A stretch of 63,946 nucleotides of DNA, from positions 1 to 63,946 of IMG/VR virus record IMGVR_UViG_3300036851_000534. One strand, given 5' to 3'. A model generated the notes under the pieces. That model did no database searches, was not told the origin of the DNA, and saw nothing but the letters and a program-made list of their open reading frames with translations. The translations under genes and the position numbers were made by a program. Source of the stretch: a virus. Below are positions 18,034-57,184 of this stretch, one piece after another. Position 1 is the first letter of the stretch, and the number at the start of each line of letters is the position of its first letter.

Positions 18034-19122
18034 ATGCCTACAAACACGAGCCGAACCGTTCCGATCGGCCATGACGTTGGCCCCACGGAATACCGCCACG
18101 CGCTCCTGCGTTACGGGGATCGCCCCTCGGAATCGTGGGCGCCGGCAACGGGGAATGAACACGCGACGCTCGCGACGGCGGGCGCGTTCACGACAACCCG
18201 AACGTGGCTGCCGGCGCTGCCGAACTACAGCGCCGTTGGGGTCGAGATCATCGTCAACGTGACGACCGCGCCGGGTGGGGGTCAGACCCTCGCCGCCTAT
18301 CTCGATCATTACTCCCTCCAGACGGCCACCTATGTCGAGGCGGAGAGTTTGGGGACGATTGCGGGCACCGGCGCGGCATTCTTCCGCAACCGGGAGCCGC
18401 TCCCGCAGCTCTGGCAACTGCGCCTCGTCCCCTCCGGCGCCGGCACCTGGAACGCCGGCGCCGGCTACAACTATTGCCAGAGCCGCGCGCAGTCGGCCCT
18501 TCCAGCGGGGACGAACAACATTGGCGATGTCGATGTCCTGACCCTGCCGGCCCTGGCGGCCGGGACCAACAACATCGGCGATGTCGATGTCCTGACCTTG
18601 CCCGGGGTGGCGGGCGATGTGGCGCACAGCGTGGCCGACAGTGGCAATCCGCTCAAGCTCGGCGCGAAAGCGATCGCCTTCGGCGCGAACCCGACCGAAG
18701 TGGACGCGGACGAGCGCACCAATCTCTACGCCCAGCGGAACGGCGTTCCCTGGGTGATCGGCGGCCATCCCAACGTCCAGAGTTTCCGCGCCACCTACAC
18801 CAGCGCCCAGACGGACGCGGCCATCATTACCGTCGGCGCCGGGGTCAAGATCGTCGTGACCCGGGTCCTCGTGACCTTGCACAAGGCGACGACGGTCAAC
18901 GTTGCGGTGATCATCGGCTTCGGGGCGACGATCACGCCGACCGGCGCCGGCGTGGTCGCCAGCCATCCGGGCATTGAGGCCGGCAGCGGCTTCGCCACCG
19001 GCGACGGCTCCGGCATCCTCGGGGTCGGCGCCGCTAACGAGGATCTGCGGATCACGAGCGGGGTGCCGACGACCGGGGCCCTCGACGTGAATATCTCCTA
19101 CTACACGATCGCAGAGGCGTAA
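18034..19122 (+). CDS. Structural protein with internal 18-residue repeat
   Basis: 362 residues. Around residues 157-190 it has two consecutive copies of AGTNNIGDVDVLTLP. This NIGDVDV repeat is common in phage surface proteins. The rest is beta-rich with low charge. A role in decoration or host contact is plausible but not shown. Confidence 0.6.
   Translation: MPTNTSRTVPIGHDVGPTEYRHALLRYGDRPSESWAPATGNEHATLATAGAFTTTRTWLPALPNYSAVGVEIIVNVTTAPGGGQTLAAYLDHYSLQTATYVEAESLGTIAGTGAAFFRNREPLPQLWQLRLVPSGAGTWNAGAGYNYCQSRAQSALPAGTNNIGDVDVLTLPALAAGTNNIGDVDVLTLPGVAGDVAHSVADSGNPLKLGAKAIAFGANPTEVDADERTNLYAQRNGVPWVIGGHPNVQSFRATYTSAQTDAAIITVGAGVKIVVTRVLVTLHKATTVNVAVIIGFGATITPTGAGVVASHPGIEAGSGFATGDGSGILGVGAANEDLRITSGVPTTGALDVNISYYTIAEA
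18505..18606 (+). repeat. 54-base tandem repeat within a structural gene
   Basis: Two copies at a 54-base period (ACAACAT..GGCGATGTCGATG core) keep the reading frame. Most differences between them are third-base changes, so the duplication is old or selected. Confidence 0.75.
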
Positions 19123-19662: not shown

Positions 19663-19920
19663 GTGGCACTGCTGGATAGCGCGGCGCGGGCGGATGCCAC
19701 GCGAAAGTTCGTGGAGGCATTCTTCGTGGGACTCGCGCGGGTCGCGGATTTGGATAGTGACGAGGTGCGGACCCTGGTGAACGATCTGGATGCGTGGCTT
19801 GACGCGAACCAGACGGCGGCGAACAATGCGATTACGACAAGTGTGCGGAACAAGGCCAGCACCACCACGAAGTTCGCGGCGCTGGCTTACGTCGCCCTTA
19901 AAAGAGGGAACGTCATTTAG
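19663..19920 (+). CDS. Small helical protein with replaced 3' end
   Basis: 85 residues from GTG 19663, helical (VEAFFVGLARVADLDSDEV). The last residues are ALKRGNVI and its stop overlaps the convergent HNH gene by eight bases. A second copy of this ending, ALKRGGVI plus stop, lies on the far side of the HNH gene at 20580-20606. The present ending uses AT-richer codons (CTT AAA AGA) than the displaced one (CTC AAG CGC), so it probably came with the endonuclease. Confidence 0.65.
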   Translation: MALLDSAARADATRKFVEAFFVGLARVADLDSDEVRTLVNDLDAWLDANQTAANNAITTSVRNKASTTTKFAALAYVALKRGNVI

Positions 19921-20560
19921 CGACAGGGGTGCTGAACGCCTTGTCGATTGACCACCCGGCTTTGAGGCGATGCGCCAGGGTTCGTCGGTCGATGCCGAGG
20001 AGTTTCCCCCAGTCATTGAGGAGACGAGTTTCCCCGCGCCATTCAAGCGGGCGACTGCTGCGGCGATTCTCATTCTGTTCAATCCGGGATGCCCAGCGGC
20101 AGTTTCCCGGTTCATAGTTGCCGTTGTTGTCGATGCGCTCGATCGTATAATCTGGCCCCGGTTTCTTGCCCACGTCAGCAAGAAATGCCGAGAAGTCCAT
20201 CCAGCGTTCGCAGATCGTAATGCCGCGTCCGCCATAGTCGGCATAGCGAGGGTGAGCCGGGTTTAGGCACCGGCGCTTCATGTGCTGCCAGGAGTTGTAT
20301 TCAGGCGTTGGCTTTTGCCTCCGGGTGTTCCCGTGGGAGGTGAACTGCGCGCGGCATCGTTGCACAGAGAGTTCGCGGTTGAGACATCCGCAGGAGCGTG
20401 ATGCTCCACCCCGGAGGATATCGCCGCGAACGACCACGGTGCCGCCGCAATCGCAGTGGCAAAGCCAGAAGCCGCCTCTGCCACGAACTACGTGGGAGAG
20501 AGACATGACGGTGAGGCGCCCGAAACAGAGGCCAGACATGTTGATGATGGGTCTGCTCAT
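19913..20560 (-). CDS. HNH homing endonuclease inserted at a gene end
   Basis: 215 residues, opposite in direction to its surroundings. The N-terminal part has CHCDCGG and CGCLNR, probably zinc-bound. The HNH core is at about residues 90-165: SWQHMKRRCLNP, YGGRGITICERW, IERIDNNGNYEPGNCRW. A C-terminal HTH follows (WGKLLGIDRRTLAHRLKAGW). A TATAAT box lies about five bases before the ATG, so it has its own promoter and almost no leader. Related proteins are at 41035 and 56110. Its last codons overlap the new 3' end of the invaded gene. Confidence 0.9.
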   Translation of the reverse strand: MSRPIINMSGLCFGRLTVMSLSHVVRGRGGFWLCHCDCGGTVVVRGDILRGGASRSCGCLNRELSVQRCRAQFTSHGNTRRQKPTPEYNSWQHMKRRCLNPAHPRYADYGGRGITICERWMDFSAFLADVGKKPGPDYTIERIDNNGNYEPGNCRWASRIEQNENRRSSRPLEWRGETRLLNDWGKLLGIDRRTLAHRLKAGWSIDKAFSTPVAK

Positions 20561-20579
20561 ACCTTATTATAGCACAAGG

Positions 20580-20606
20580 GCGCTCAAGCGCGGCGGAGTG
20601 ATCTAG
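20580..20606 (+). pseudogene. Displaced 3' end of the small gene at 19663
   Basis: Encodes ALKRGGVI and a TAG whose G is the first base of the next gene's GTG start, the tight coupling expected of the original operon. The intact gene now ends 660 bases upstream with ALKRGNVI. The HNH gene lies between the two. Confidence 0.7.
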
Positions 20607-21361
20607 TGGCGCGGAACTTCGATGCCGTCAACGATAAGGTGGCGCTTTCGACGCCGACATCGAGCAACTTTATCACCGCCTCCGCCGGTACGCTGGCGCT
20701 CTGGTTGCGGGCGACGAGCGCCGGCGCCGCCGCCGGGAACGTTTACACGGGCTCTGTAGCAATCGCAGATGCGGGCGCGTTTTTTGGCATCTTTCAGGCT
20801 GTTGTTGGCGGTCTTGATCGGATCTGGGCCTACAACTATGACGGCAGTGAAGATACAGCCGGGGCGACGTATACCGTCGGGACCTGGCATCATATCGTCT
20901 GGCGGCACAGCGGTGGCACCCTCTACCTTTACAAGGATGGCGCCGAAGCAGCCACCGCGACCAGCGGCAACACGACGGATCTCACCAATGCCATGTCGAT
21001 CGGCGGCGGGGGTTTTGCAGGATCGGAGAGCTGGGGCGGGGATCTGGCGGAAGTCGCGGCGTGGAACGTGGCGCTGACGGTCAGTGAAATCGCGGCGCTG
21101 GCGCGCGGGGTCTCGCCGCTCTCGCTCCGTTATGGCGCGGCCGGCTCGCTTACCGCCTACCTGCCGCTCTGGGGCATCCACTCGCCCGAGCCGGATTTCT
21201 CCCACAACCGGCGCACCGGAACTCTGACGGATACCACGCGCGCCAATCACCCGCCGGTCAGCCCGTTCTGGCTGCCGCCGCTGGTCACGCAGACGCAGGA
21301 CATTGCGGCGGCCGCGGCGGCATCAAGCGCGCGCCGCCTGGCGCTCCTGGGCGTCGGATAG
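20606..21361 (+). CDS. LamG/concanavalin-like lectin-domain virion protein
   Basis: 251 residues from GTG 20606. Residues 25-170 follow the LamG-like plan: FITASAGTLALWLRATS, VGTWHHIVWRHSGGTLYLYKDG, and LAEVAAWNVALTVSEIAAL. Such domains bind sugars and are common on phage surfaces. It may help adhere to host polysaccharide. The C-terminal 60 residues are Ala-rich. Confidence 0.75.
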   Translation: MARNFDAVNDKVALSTPTSSNFITASAGTLALWLRATSAGAAAGNVYTGSVAIADAGAFFGIFQAVVGGLDRIWAYNYDGSEDTAGATYTVGTWHHIVWRHSGGTLYLYKDGAEAATATSGNTTDLTNAMSIGGGGFAGSESWGGDLAEVAAWNVALTVSEIAALARGVSPLSLRYGAAGSLTAYLPLWGIHSPEPDFSHNRRTGTLTDTTRANHPPVSPFWLPPLVTQTQDIAAAAAASSARRLALLGVG

Positions 21362-41034: not shown

Positions 41035-41787
41035 TCACTCATCCTGGGGATTTGTAAGGATTCGCTCAACAGGCCAGCCTCGATCCAGGCGGCGCCCGAG
41101 CGTTCGGTGATTGCATCCGAGCCGCTTTGCCCATTGTGTGAGAGAGAGGGTTTCTCCCTGATAGACTATCAAGCGCGGCTTCCTTTCGGGGCGAGGAGGT
41201 TCCGTCAGGGCTTTTTCGATCGGCCACCCCTGTGCCAGACGGTAACGGAGAGTTGTCGGATCGAGATTGAAACGAGCGGCCCAATCTTCCCGGGTTAGCC
41301 GTTCTCCTTGATACTCAATAAAACGGTTCGTTCTTTTGTTCCGTTGCTGCTCTGCCGTTGTCGCCCAGCGAACGTTGCCAGGTTCGTAGTGGCCGTCATT
41401 GTCGATCCGCTCCAGGGAGTGATTCGCGCCGGGGCGCCAGCCCATATCTTCGATAAACGCCGCAAAGTCGTGCCAGCGTTCGCAAACCCGGATCCCTCGT
41501 CCCCCGTAGAGCGGCCAGACCTTCAGATTGGGATTTCGACAGCGCGCGAGCATCGACTGCCAGACCTTGTATTCCGGTGTCTGCCAGCCGCCATGTTTGG
41601 CGAGTCTTTTCCCCATGCACGCGCGGCAACTGGAAGTTTTCCCGGTGCGAAGATTGAGGGCATAAATGGGTTTTTCGACCCCACAGGCACAGCGACAAAG
41701 GACGTGACGCCGCGCTTCATATCGGGGCAACTCTGCCAGGACGGTCCATTGTCCGTACGTCTTTCCGATCATCGGTATCTTTTCCAT
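41035..41787 (-). CDS. HNH homing endonuclease with duplicated C-terminal HTH
   Basis: 250 residues. N-terminal CRCACGV and CRACMG (zinc). HNH core at residues 75-150: VWQSMLARCRNPN, LYGGRGIRVCERW, LERIDNDGHYEPGNVRW. Two C-terminal HTH units (LTREDWAARFNLDPTTLRYRL and LSLTQWAKRLGCNHRTLGRRL) indicate a duplicated DNA-binding module. A TACAAT box lies about eight bases before the ATG. Unlike the other two HNH genes, no displaced gene end is visible beside it. Confidence 0.9.
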   Translation of the reverse strand: MEKIPMIGKTYGQWTVLAELPRYEARRHVLCRCACGVEKPIYALNLRTGKTSSCRACMGKRLAKHGGWQTPEYKVWQSMLARCRNPNLKVWPLYGGRGIRVCERWHDFAAFIEDMGWRPGANHSLERIDNDGHYEPGNVRWATTAEQQRNKRTNRFIEYQGERLTREDWAARFNLDPTTLRYRLAQGWPIEKALTEPPRPERKPRLIVYQGETLSLTQWAKRLGCNHRTLGRRLDRGWPVERILTNPQDE

Positions 41788-55628: not shown

Positions 55629-56162
55629 ATGCCACGCTTGATACCGGTGGACTGGACCCCCGAGTGTCGTATGTCGCGTCTGGTAATCCACTGGACGGCC
55701 GGAGCCGGGGCTCCTTCGGCAGAGGACCTCGAGAGTTACCATATTCTCATCGATCGGGTGGGCCTCCCCCATCGCGGCGACCACAGCATCCGCGACAACC
55801 TCAACACCATTGACGACGACTACGCCGCCCACACGCGCGCCCTGAATACCGGCAGCATTGGCCTGGCGCTTTGCGGAATGGCCGGCGCAAACCGGGCGCC
55901 GTTTGCTCCCGGGAGGTTCCCGCTGACCCGCCCGCAGTGGAATAACGCGCTCTTGGCCGCGGCGGATCTCTGCGAGCGGTATGGGATCGCGCCGGAGCGG
56001 AACACGCTCCTGATGCATTGCGAGGTGCCGCAGGCGCTTGGGGTGGCGCAGCGGGGAAAGTGGGACGTAACCGTTCGTACGTGGGCTGGGCCGCCGGAGT
56101 ATGCCTCGCTCACTCCAGGGGAAGAGTTAAGGGTTCGGGTGAAGAAACTTCTGGAGGGGTAG
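55629..56162 (+). CDS. N-acetylmuramoyl-L-alanine amidase (endolysin)
   Basis: 177 residues. RLVIHWTAGAGAP near residue 18 and LLMHCEVPQALG near 127 provide zinc ligands of Amidase_2/PGRP-type enzymes. GSIGLALCGMAGA near 77 is the usual central strand. It would cleave the peptide-glycan amide bond at lysis. The last 37 residues have a displaced, frameshifted copy at 56828-56939, and the present end overlaps the HNH gene by 53 bases. Confidence 0.88.
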   Translation: MPRLIPVDWTPECRMSRLVIHWTAGAGAPSAEDLESYHILIDRVGLPHRGDHSIRDNLNTIDDDYAAHTRALNTGSIGLALCGMAGANRAPFAPGRFPLTRPQWNNALLAAADLCERYGIAPERNTLLMHCEVPQALGVAQRGKWDVTVRTWAGPPEYASLTPGEELRVRVKKLLEG

Positions 56163-56811
56163 TCTTTTGCGGACGACTACGAATGGGGGCTGTGAGGGCT
56201 TTCTCGATATCCCAACCGGCCTTTAGCCGGCCGTGAAGTCGCTCCGGTTCGAGTCCGAGTTCGTGTGCCCATTGGGAGACGGTCTGCCGCCGGCCGTCCC
56301 ACTCGATCCAGACGTTTCGGCGCGTGTTGTTGGTGTTCTCGCGTTGAGTGGTCCATCGGCAGTTACCGGGGGCGTAGGGGCCGGCGCTGTCGATCCGATC
56401 CAGTACGGCCTTCGGGAAGGGTTTGGGTCCCATGGCGCGCAGGAAGTTGGCGAAGTCATGCCACTCTTCGGCTACGGTGATCCCTTGGCCGCCGTAGAAG
56501 CGATAGCGATCATGGTTTGGATTGTAGCAACGGCGCATCATACGCGCCCACGTCTGGTACTCTACGCTGGGGGTATGCTGGCGAGTGTGGCCGTGGGTAA
56601 CGCTTCTCTCACAGCCGCAACTCTTGCTTTCTCCCTTGAGGAGGGAGAAGAGGAAGACTGCATGCTCCGTTCCGCAGGAGCAGCGACAAGGGATGAACCA
56701 GTGAAGCCGCTTTCCGCGCAACTCTCGAAAGGGCGTGCCGATGATTTCCCAAAGTCCGACGTGCGCCCCGATCTCGGGGGCTTTCTCATGCATTCGCAGG
56801 CGTCTTCCCAT
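56110..56811 (-). CDS. HNH homing endonuclease inserted at the amidase gene end
   Basis: 233 residues from ATG 56811 behind GGAGG; longer frames exist but have no ribosome site. CRCSCGT and CGCERS near residues 40-60, HNH core at 75-150 (YQTWARMMRRCYNPNHDRY, FYGGQGITVAEEW, LDRIDSAGPYAPGNCRW), then an HTH (VSQWAHELGLEPERLHGRL). It converges on the amidase gene and its last 17 codons are antisense to the amidase's last codons, so the endonuclease gene carries the amidase's replacement end. Confidence 0.9.
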   Translation of the reverse strand: MGRRLRMHEKAPEIGAHVGLWEIIGTPFRELRGKRLHWFIPCRCSCGTEHAVFLFSLLKGESKSCGCERSVTHGHTRQHTPSVEYQTWARMMRRCYNPNHDRYRFYGGQGITVAEEWHDFANFLRAMGPKPFPKAVLDRIDSAGPYAPGNCRWTTQRENTNNTRRNVWIEWDGRRQTVSQWAHELGLEPERLHGRLKAGWDIEKALTAPIRSRPQKTTPPEVSSPEPLTLPLE

Positions 56812-56827
56812 CGCACTATCCTCCAAT

Positions 56828-56939
56828 GGTAAGTTCGACGTATCCCCCAAGACTTCCTGTGTTTTACCGAGGAAAGTACAACGCCGGGACTCCCGGCGAG
56901 GATCTGCGCCAGCGGGTAGAGTTGTTGCTGGAGGGGTGA
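56828..56939 (+). pseudogene. Displaced, frameshifted 3' end of the amidase gene
   Basis: It begins GKFDVSPKTS (compare GKWDVTVRTW in the amidase). After a frame change it continues AGTPGEDLRQRVELLLEG and stop (compare SLTPGEELRVRVKKLLEG). It lies directly behind the HNH start codon and eleven bases before the next gene's ATG. The shift shows that this copy no longer encodes protein in one piece. Confidence 0.8.
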
Positions 56940-56950
56940 GGAGTAGATAC

Positions 56951-57184
56951 ATGCCGAAGATCACGAAAGCCAACGCCTTATGGCATGCGGAGCGCGTCGA
57001 GGTGGCGATTGACGGTCCCGGCCCCGGTGGCATCTCGGTGACGCTCGCGCGGCCCGGGGATTGGTGCGCCTATCTGGAGACGAGTGACGGTGAACTGGTC
57101 TTCAAGGCGTTTCTGACGGACCAGGAGTATCGGGAAAAGTTTGTGCGTGTCGCGGGCGGTAGCCTGGCGGCGGAGCGTCGTTAG
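56951..57184 (+). CDS. Hypothetical small protein after the amidase locus
   Basis: 77 residues from ATG 56951 behind GAGGAG. Strand-rich (RVEVAIDGPGPGGISVTLAR). It overlaps the convergent membrane protein gene by four bases. It may have followed the amidase gene directly before the HNH insertion. Confidence 0.65.
   Translation: MPKITKANALWHAERVEVAIDGPGPGGISVTLARPGDWCAYLETSDGELVFKAFLTDQEYREKFVRVAGGSLAAERR

Follow-up and report, generated by a model that had tools for sequence, protein, structure and literature searches.

Sequence comparison supports the view that an HNH element of a bacterial virus works like the mobile ORFs of mitochondria that swap the ends of genes. The material is a single virus record of 63,946 bases, IMGVR_UViG_3300036851_000534, which was analyzed at its full length (the window) and derives from a virus of bacteria. 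It holds three HNH genes, at 19913, 41035 and 56110, referred to below as W1, W2 and W3 (Table 1). Two matching gene ends flank W1, an arrangement that is confirmed here, and the favored reading, to which we assign a probability of about 70%, is that a free-standing, homing-type HNH gene came in through break repair guided by one-sided homology, bringing the end of a diverged donor gene with it and displacing the native one. Phage homing genes of the free-standing kind are commonly portrayed as neutral passengers in intergenic positions, or as elements that split genes. The gene-end swap, known from fungal mitochondria, appears at a minority of similar phage HNH elements.

Table 1. Features of the window at and around its three HNH genes
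Feature	Position	Strand	Remarks
Host gene, 85 aa, GTG start	19663..19920	+	C-terminus ...AYV-ALKRGNVI-TAG
Intact end of the 85-aa gene (last nine codons), putative replacement end	19894..19920	+	GC 44%
W1 HNH gene, 215 aa, convergent with host gene, 8-nt antisense overlap	19913..20560	-	phrog_374, E 8e-70
Displaced end ALKRGGVI-TAG, putative native end	20580..20606	+	23/27 nt identical to L001 gene end
LamG (Laminin_G_3) gene, probable original downstream neighbor	20606..21361	+	E 2e-18; homologue in L001
W2 HNH gene, between divergent genes	41035..41787	-	HNH family member
Endolysin-like N-acetylmuramoyl-L-alanine amidase	55629..56162	+	Amidase_2, E 1.4e-11; phrog_5867 endolysin, E 3e-27
Intact amidase end, putative replacement	56097..56162	+	13/21 residues, 57% nt identity to displaced copy
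W3 HNH gene, 53-nt antisense overlap with amidase gene	56110..56811	-	start codon set by family alignment
Displaced amidase end, KYNAGTPGEDLRQRVELLLEG-stop	56874..56939	+	shortly before next gene (ATG 56951)

The host gene at W1 falls in no Pfam or PHROG family below E 0.02. The stop codon of the HNH gene lies, antisense, inside the last 8 nt of this gene, and a second version of the gene's end, ALKRGGVI, follows in frame 19 bases past the HNH ORF. As the original prediction had it, the two ends ALKRGNVI and ALKRGGVI lie on either side of the HNH gene, and the TAG of the displaced copy overlaps the GTG start of the LamG gene as TAGTG. The two ends share 7 of their 8 residues (16/27 nt). The displaced end also includes GGAG, which is like a ribosome site for the LamG gene. 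Further upstream in the window, the protein encoded at 18034-19122 (+) contains a near-perfect tandem repeat, AGTNNIGDVDVLTLP, and matches part of phrog_9224.

A relative with an empty site bears on which of these two ends is the original. The suggestion had been to look for phages in which the gene at 19663 is joined directly to the LamG gene, and such a join was found in the IMG/VR contig IMGVR_UViG_3300021061_000007 (L001). Its homologue of the 85-aa gene is 68% identical and ends in ALKRAGVI and a stop, and a homologue of the LamG gene (41% over 86 aa, E 5e-15) starts two bases later, with no HNH gene between them; the join reads TAG-CC-ATG, unlike the overlapping TAGTG of the window. The gene upstream of the 85-aa gene is also common to both (68%). 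The L001 gene end is identical to the displaced end at 23 of 27 nt and to the intact end at 17 of 27, with 12 of the 27 positions belonging to the start region of the next gene. At the 11 positions that distinguish the two ends of W1, L001 has the base of the displaced end in 8, that of the intact end in 2 and a different base in 1. The last 12 bases of the displaced end, GGAGTGATCTAG, are identical in L001 and resemble a ribosome site for the LamG gene. Selection on this signal may account for part of the similarity, and also for the retention of the displaced piece; the first 15 bases do not discriminate, with 11 matches to L001 in the displaced end and 10 in the intact one. The comparison, a small sample, fits a displaced copy that is the original one. 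A search for further relatives of the 85-aa gene again returned only the contig of L001, plus one chance match.

Base composition points in the same direction. The intact copy is AT-richer, as had been stated (44% vs 67% GC for the displaced copy), and the outside origin that had been drawn from this is likely rather than proven. On its own the low GC is a weak sign, because 6.8% of 818 overlapping 9-codon windows in four neighboring genes have a GC3 as low as that of the intact end; the outside origin is considered likely from the L001 comparison, the lower GC, and the same direction of GC difference in 12 of the 13 cases described below.

The W1 protein matches PHROG families annotated as HNH endonuclease (phrog_3377 with E 2e-52, in addition to the phrog_374 match of Table 1), and no Pfam HNH or NCBIfam model passes its cut-off. 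An AlphaFold2 model from a 47-sequence alignment has a mean pLDDT of 92.9. Foldseek gave no match for it in the PDB below E 0.001, and the top row of VIA-align is PacI (PDB 3ldy; Z 6.4, rmsd 3.0, 79 residues, model residues 77-169). The closest solved fold row is thus an HNH restriction enzyme, at a middling Z, whereas W1 is read as a homing element. In the usual HNH motif the first catalytic residue is His; in this family the corresponding position is an invariant Arg, and PacI also has an Asp-Arg pair there. The Arg, the missed Pfam cut-offs and the lack of a Foldseek match count against the favored reading. The invariant residues of the family include R142, N153 and N165, together with C36, C38, C57 and C59, which could bind zinc.

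W1 is not part of an intron or intein, being antisense to a host gene whose frame is continuous to its stop. A group I intron with an HNH ORF was rejected, since the host ORF is uninterrupted and an Rfam search of the window found no intron or other family at gathering score; the same search also returned none for the intron-like insert of phage ROSA described below. A promoter scan gave nothing for the strand of the HNH gene. The best reading of W1 is a free-standing (intronless) homing-type gene that encodes a putative nuclease.

The same arrangement recurs in the window at 55629-56951, where W3 lies at an endolysin-type gene. The amidase ends in TPGEELRVRVKKLLEG and a stop (in a longer view of its C-terminus, EYASLTPGEELRVRVKKLLEG and the stop), and the GC of its intact end is 0.56 vs 0.65 for the displaced one. 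Amidase relatives were sought in viral contigs and in L001, with nothing informative. At W2, a displaced gene end was looked for and none was found. The W2 protein carries a second, C-terminal copy of a helix-turn-helix-like module (LTQWAKRLGCNHRTLGRRLDRGWPVERILTNP), which gives it two separate family matches.

The survey of the HNH family was built from 79 + 80 viral and 80 genome loci, of which 224 distinct loci were kept, including the three of the window, the HNH locus of L001 and 220 others. Cases were called by suffix-anchored and translated comparisons of the flanks, followed by inspection, and several rest on inspection by hand. Thirteen were accepted, namely the 2 of the window and 11 among the 220 other loci, and their host genes are mostly core phage genes. 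The 11 comprise 3' host ends with the HNH gene on the opposite strand (L015 terminase, L108 dCTP deaminase and L145, with no named family), 3' ends with it on the same strand (L141 integrase, L195 NinX, L167, with no named family, and L060 DNA ligase), and 5' ends with it on the same strand (L208 helicase, L224 NinB, L134 SbcC-like and L241, with no named family). Most surveyed loci have no visible scar.

Several features of the accepted cases favor a substitute end that was brought in by the element. The intact end shares 4-71 nt with the HNH ORF in 9 of the 13, and because they share bases the two form one unit and hardly arrived apart. The displaced end is higher in GC than the intact one in 12 of the 13 (the exception is L241), and the GC of the HNH gene is below that of the flanks in the same proportion (12/13; equal in L060). 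The two copies are 44-70% identical over 27-111 nt. A weak candidate, L063, stands outside these 12/13 and 9/13 counts. Relatives without the HNH gene carry the host gene whole in the case of the L208 helicase and, in phage PIS 136, of the L108 dCTP deaminase, and they are too distant to separate the native from the foreign end; the NinX and NinB relatives that were found are likewise too distant to inform. The L015 terminase relatives, about 30% identical, end in LVIAGV and a stop, which supports the motif only. Counting against the favored reading, no donor phage with the same end and HNH gene was found, and no displaced end was seen in W2, D3 or ROSA.

The automated tests make the best individual cases clear, and the overall enrichment that they give is modest. 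W3 reaches a suffix-anchored score of 62, above the null maxima of 43 (of 2539) and of 30 (of 1813, strict test). In the strict anchored test, which demands a host ORF of at least 150 codons, W3, L141 and L195 lie above all null values. This test excludes W1, whose host ORF is under 150 codons, and did not take in L224 as a case (host gene 127 aa). L015 and L167 have no score in it, probably owing to the complexity filter, nor do L108, L145 and L060, where the ends do not align at the stop. In geometry C the leading loci are L208, L134 and L241 once the tandem HNH genes of L031 are set aside; the null there is inflated (maximum 120), probably by HNH starts. Geometry D of the strict anchored test gave zero cases. 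With tblastx at E<=1e-4, 8 of 214 observed comparisons vs 11 of 1180 null comparisons gave a match, one of the 8 being of low complexity, and repeats at the DNA level numbered 5 in the observed set and 5 in the null.

A number of candidates were discarded. L031 and L046 are tandem HNH genes; matches at L193, L075, L178, L220, L044, L055, L226, L087 and similar loci are of low complexity or out of frame, and the same applies to the score of 58 or 59 that W1 obtains in geometry B.

Other observations on the surveyed loci are recorded here in their own right. The two family HNH genes that stand side by side in L031 and L046 suggest repeated entry into one site. In L038 (2944-3650) a tail-tube-like gene ends in NPSREQS and a stop, and PREQSVVH with a stop lies past the HNH gene, directly before the next gene; it is a possible, unproven further case of a displaced end and was left uncounted. 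In Staphylococcus phage ROSA (L279, 2360-3330), an HNH gene with its flanks interrupts a neck/tail-completion gene region that is continuous in sister phages at about 99% identity; the insert looks intron-like, and no Rfam family reached gathering score for it. Internal stops in the HNH match occur in 13 of the 220 loci (e.g., L008 and L128), pointing to decayed copies, as expected of homing genes in decay. In phages Rosita and TJE2 (L281 and L282) HNH genes are named 'deoxyuridine 5'-triphosphate nucleotidohydrolase', or a fragment of this name, and in TJE2 the same product name also stands on unrelated genes; these are apparently annotation errors.

Three other explanations of the paired ends were weighed. 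That the resemblance at W1 is due to chance, or to an unrelated small gene, is highly improbable. The match has just 8 residues, and alone it reaches p ~0.01 in the swapped-locus null; when all six frames of the window are read, however, only two of 2470 stop codons are preceded by at least 5 of the 8 residues, those of the gene itself and of the displaced end, and the latter lies at the predicted place. The W1 case is convincing because the match flanks the HNH gene, in frame and at a stop, and because a relative with an empty site exists, and the longer amidase match exceeds both null maxima. Another explanation holds that the gene end and the HNH gene arrived together by ordinary phage recombination, with a crossover in the 3' end of the gene and with the nuclease not as the driver. 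Illegitimate recombination between phages is believed to occur at the boundaries of modules (PMC3029335), and the absence of a scar at most surveyed loci is in keeping with such passive mosaicism; against it, the scar recurs next to members of this nuclease family, and the surveyed loci that bear it involve many genes, phages and hosts that are unrelated. Passive exchange is judged unlikely.

The remaining explanation, that insertion of the HNH gene copied a short resident gene end and that the copies diverged later, is considered unlikely. The insert is indeed flanked by two copies, and long target duplications have reportedly been described for restriction-modification genes. However, near-identical long direct repeats of that kind are absent, and near-identical duplicates of gene ends, sought across the surveyed loci, were found only in the tandem HNH genes of L031, the accepted pairs being no closer than the range given above. 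The remnants also vary in length and occur at 5' as well as 3' ends. At W1, 7 of the 8 residues survive 11 base changes, which means that both copies were still coding as they diverged; the codon positions, pooled with L063 included, point in the same direction with 194 of 391 changes at position 3, a figure that is biased as the pairs were found at the protein level.

Entry by one-sided break repair, the preferred reading, can be laid out in steps. A break or nick would have occurred near the 3' end of the recipient's 85-aa gene, probably at a cleavage site of the HNH protein. The template would have been HNH-bearing DNA of a diverged relative, presumably with homology on the side of the gene body only, and copying would have run from the gene body through the last codons of the donor and on into the antisense HNH gene. 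The copied stretch would then have been attached to the far side of the break by a homology-independent join. The outcome would be a hybrid gene whose end derives from the donor and is coded differently; the HNH gene overlaps this end, and the native end is stranded beyond. We propose that the stranded end has persisted owing to the translation start signals for the LamG gene that it contains. The recoded end would probably protect against re-cutting, and the cases at 5' ends would be a mirror image of the same steps.

A broader generalization is tentative, with the odds somewhat against it. HNH genes of the phrog_374 type may be phage mobile cassettes that carry a pre-made, differently coded substitute for the end of their target, 5' or 3' and on either strand. 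The invaded gene would stay working, re-cutting would be resisted, the element would be locked in by the overlap of ORFs, and the cassettes would continually generate chimeric ends in core phage genes. Apart from this generalization, the recurring scar of substitute end, nuclease and displaced native end is a readable record of entry into new sites, and it allows a direct test of how intronless homing into diverged genomes proceeds. Furthermore, end swapping would explain part of the mosaicism at gene ends. Annotators should be aware that a short ORF or an unusual HNH terminus can represent a stranded gene end, as in L195, L167 and L208, whose displaced ends form in-frame fusions with the HNH ORF.

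No phage case of replaced gene ends was found in openly accessible papers, and comparable systems in phages include the free-standing mob and seg genes of T4-like phages. The accessible part of their description (PMC2988022) reports intergenic nucleases, intronless homing, co-conversion of flanks and insertion at core genes, all of which resemble the present elements, as well as marker exclusion and the splitting of nrdA by mobE and of gene 60 by mobA. The cases described there differ from those in which a gene end is replaced and the old end is kept beyond the insert. The homing endonuclease genes of an ICP1 survey are similar as nuclease genes near essential phage genes that are seen as drivers of exchange; in the portion of that paper available (PMC10448857) they occur in islands or in interrupted or spliced genes, versus the replacement of ends seen here. 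Taken together with PMC3029335, the consulted parts of these sources deal with marker exclusion, split genes, islands and introns, and end replacement is not among their topics.

The closest parallel is offered by the mORFs of fungal mitochondria, reported for atp6 of Allomyces macrogynus and for atp6, atp9, cox2 and nad3 of Glomus, in which, as far as the consulted part of the source goes, the incoming endonuclease ORF supplies a foreign C-terminus and the native C-terminus stays behind, downstream of the ORF (PMC3630166). Related duplications are described, in the part seen of a second source, for Endoconidiophora mitochondria (PMC6279837). Going by these partial descriptions, the phage elements differ in that their protein is of the HNH family and is encoded in virus DNA, whereas the mORFs are mitochondrial and of the LAGLIDADG or GIY-YIG type, and in that the phage HNH gene is often antisense to the host gene and replaces 5' as well as 3' ends. 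In both systems, to the extent covered by the same sources, an endonuclease ORF stands between an intact foreign end, putatively foreign in the phage, and a displaced native one, leaving a hybrid host gene; a gene end on both sides of the endonuclease ORF is present at W1 and W3. The native end of the mORF hosts is the one closer to the empty relative; at W1 the corresponding counts against L001 (23 and 17 of 27 nt) cover few sites, 12 of them in the start region of the next gene, and the relatives of L208 and L108 do not discriminate. The end swapping proposed here would show that a process described in fungal mitochondria also operates in phages.
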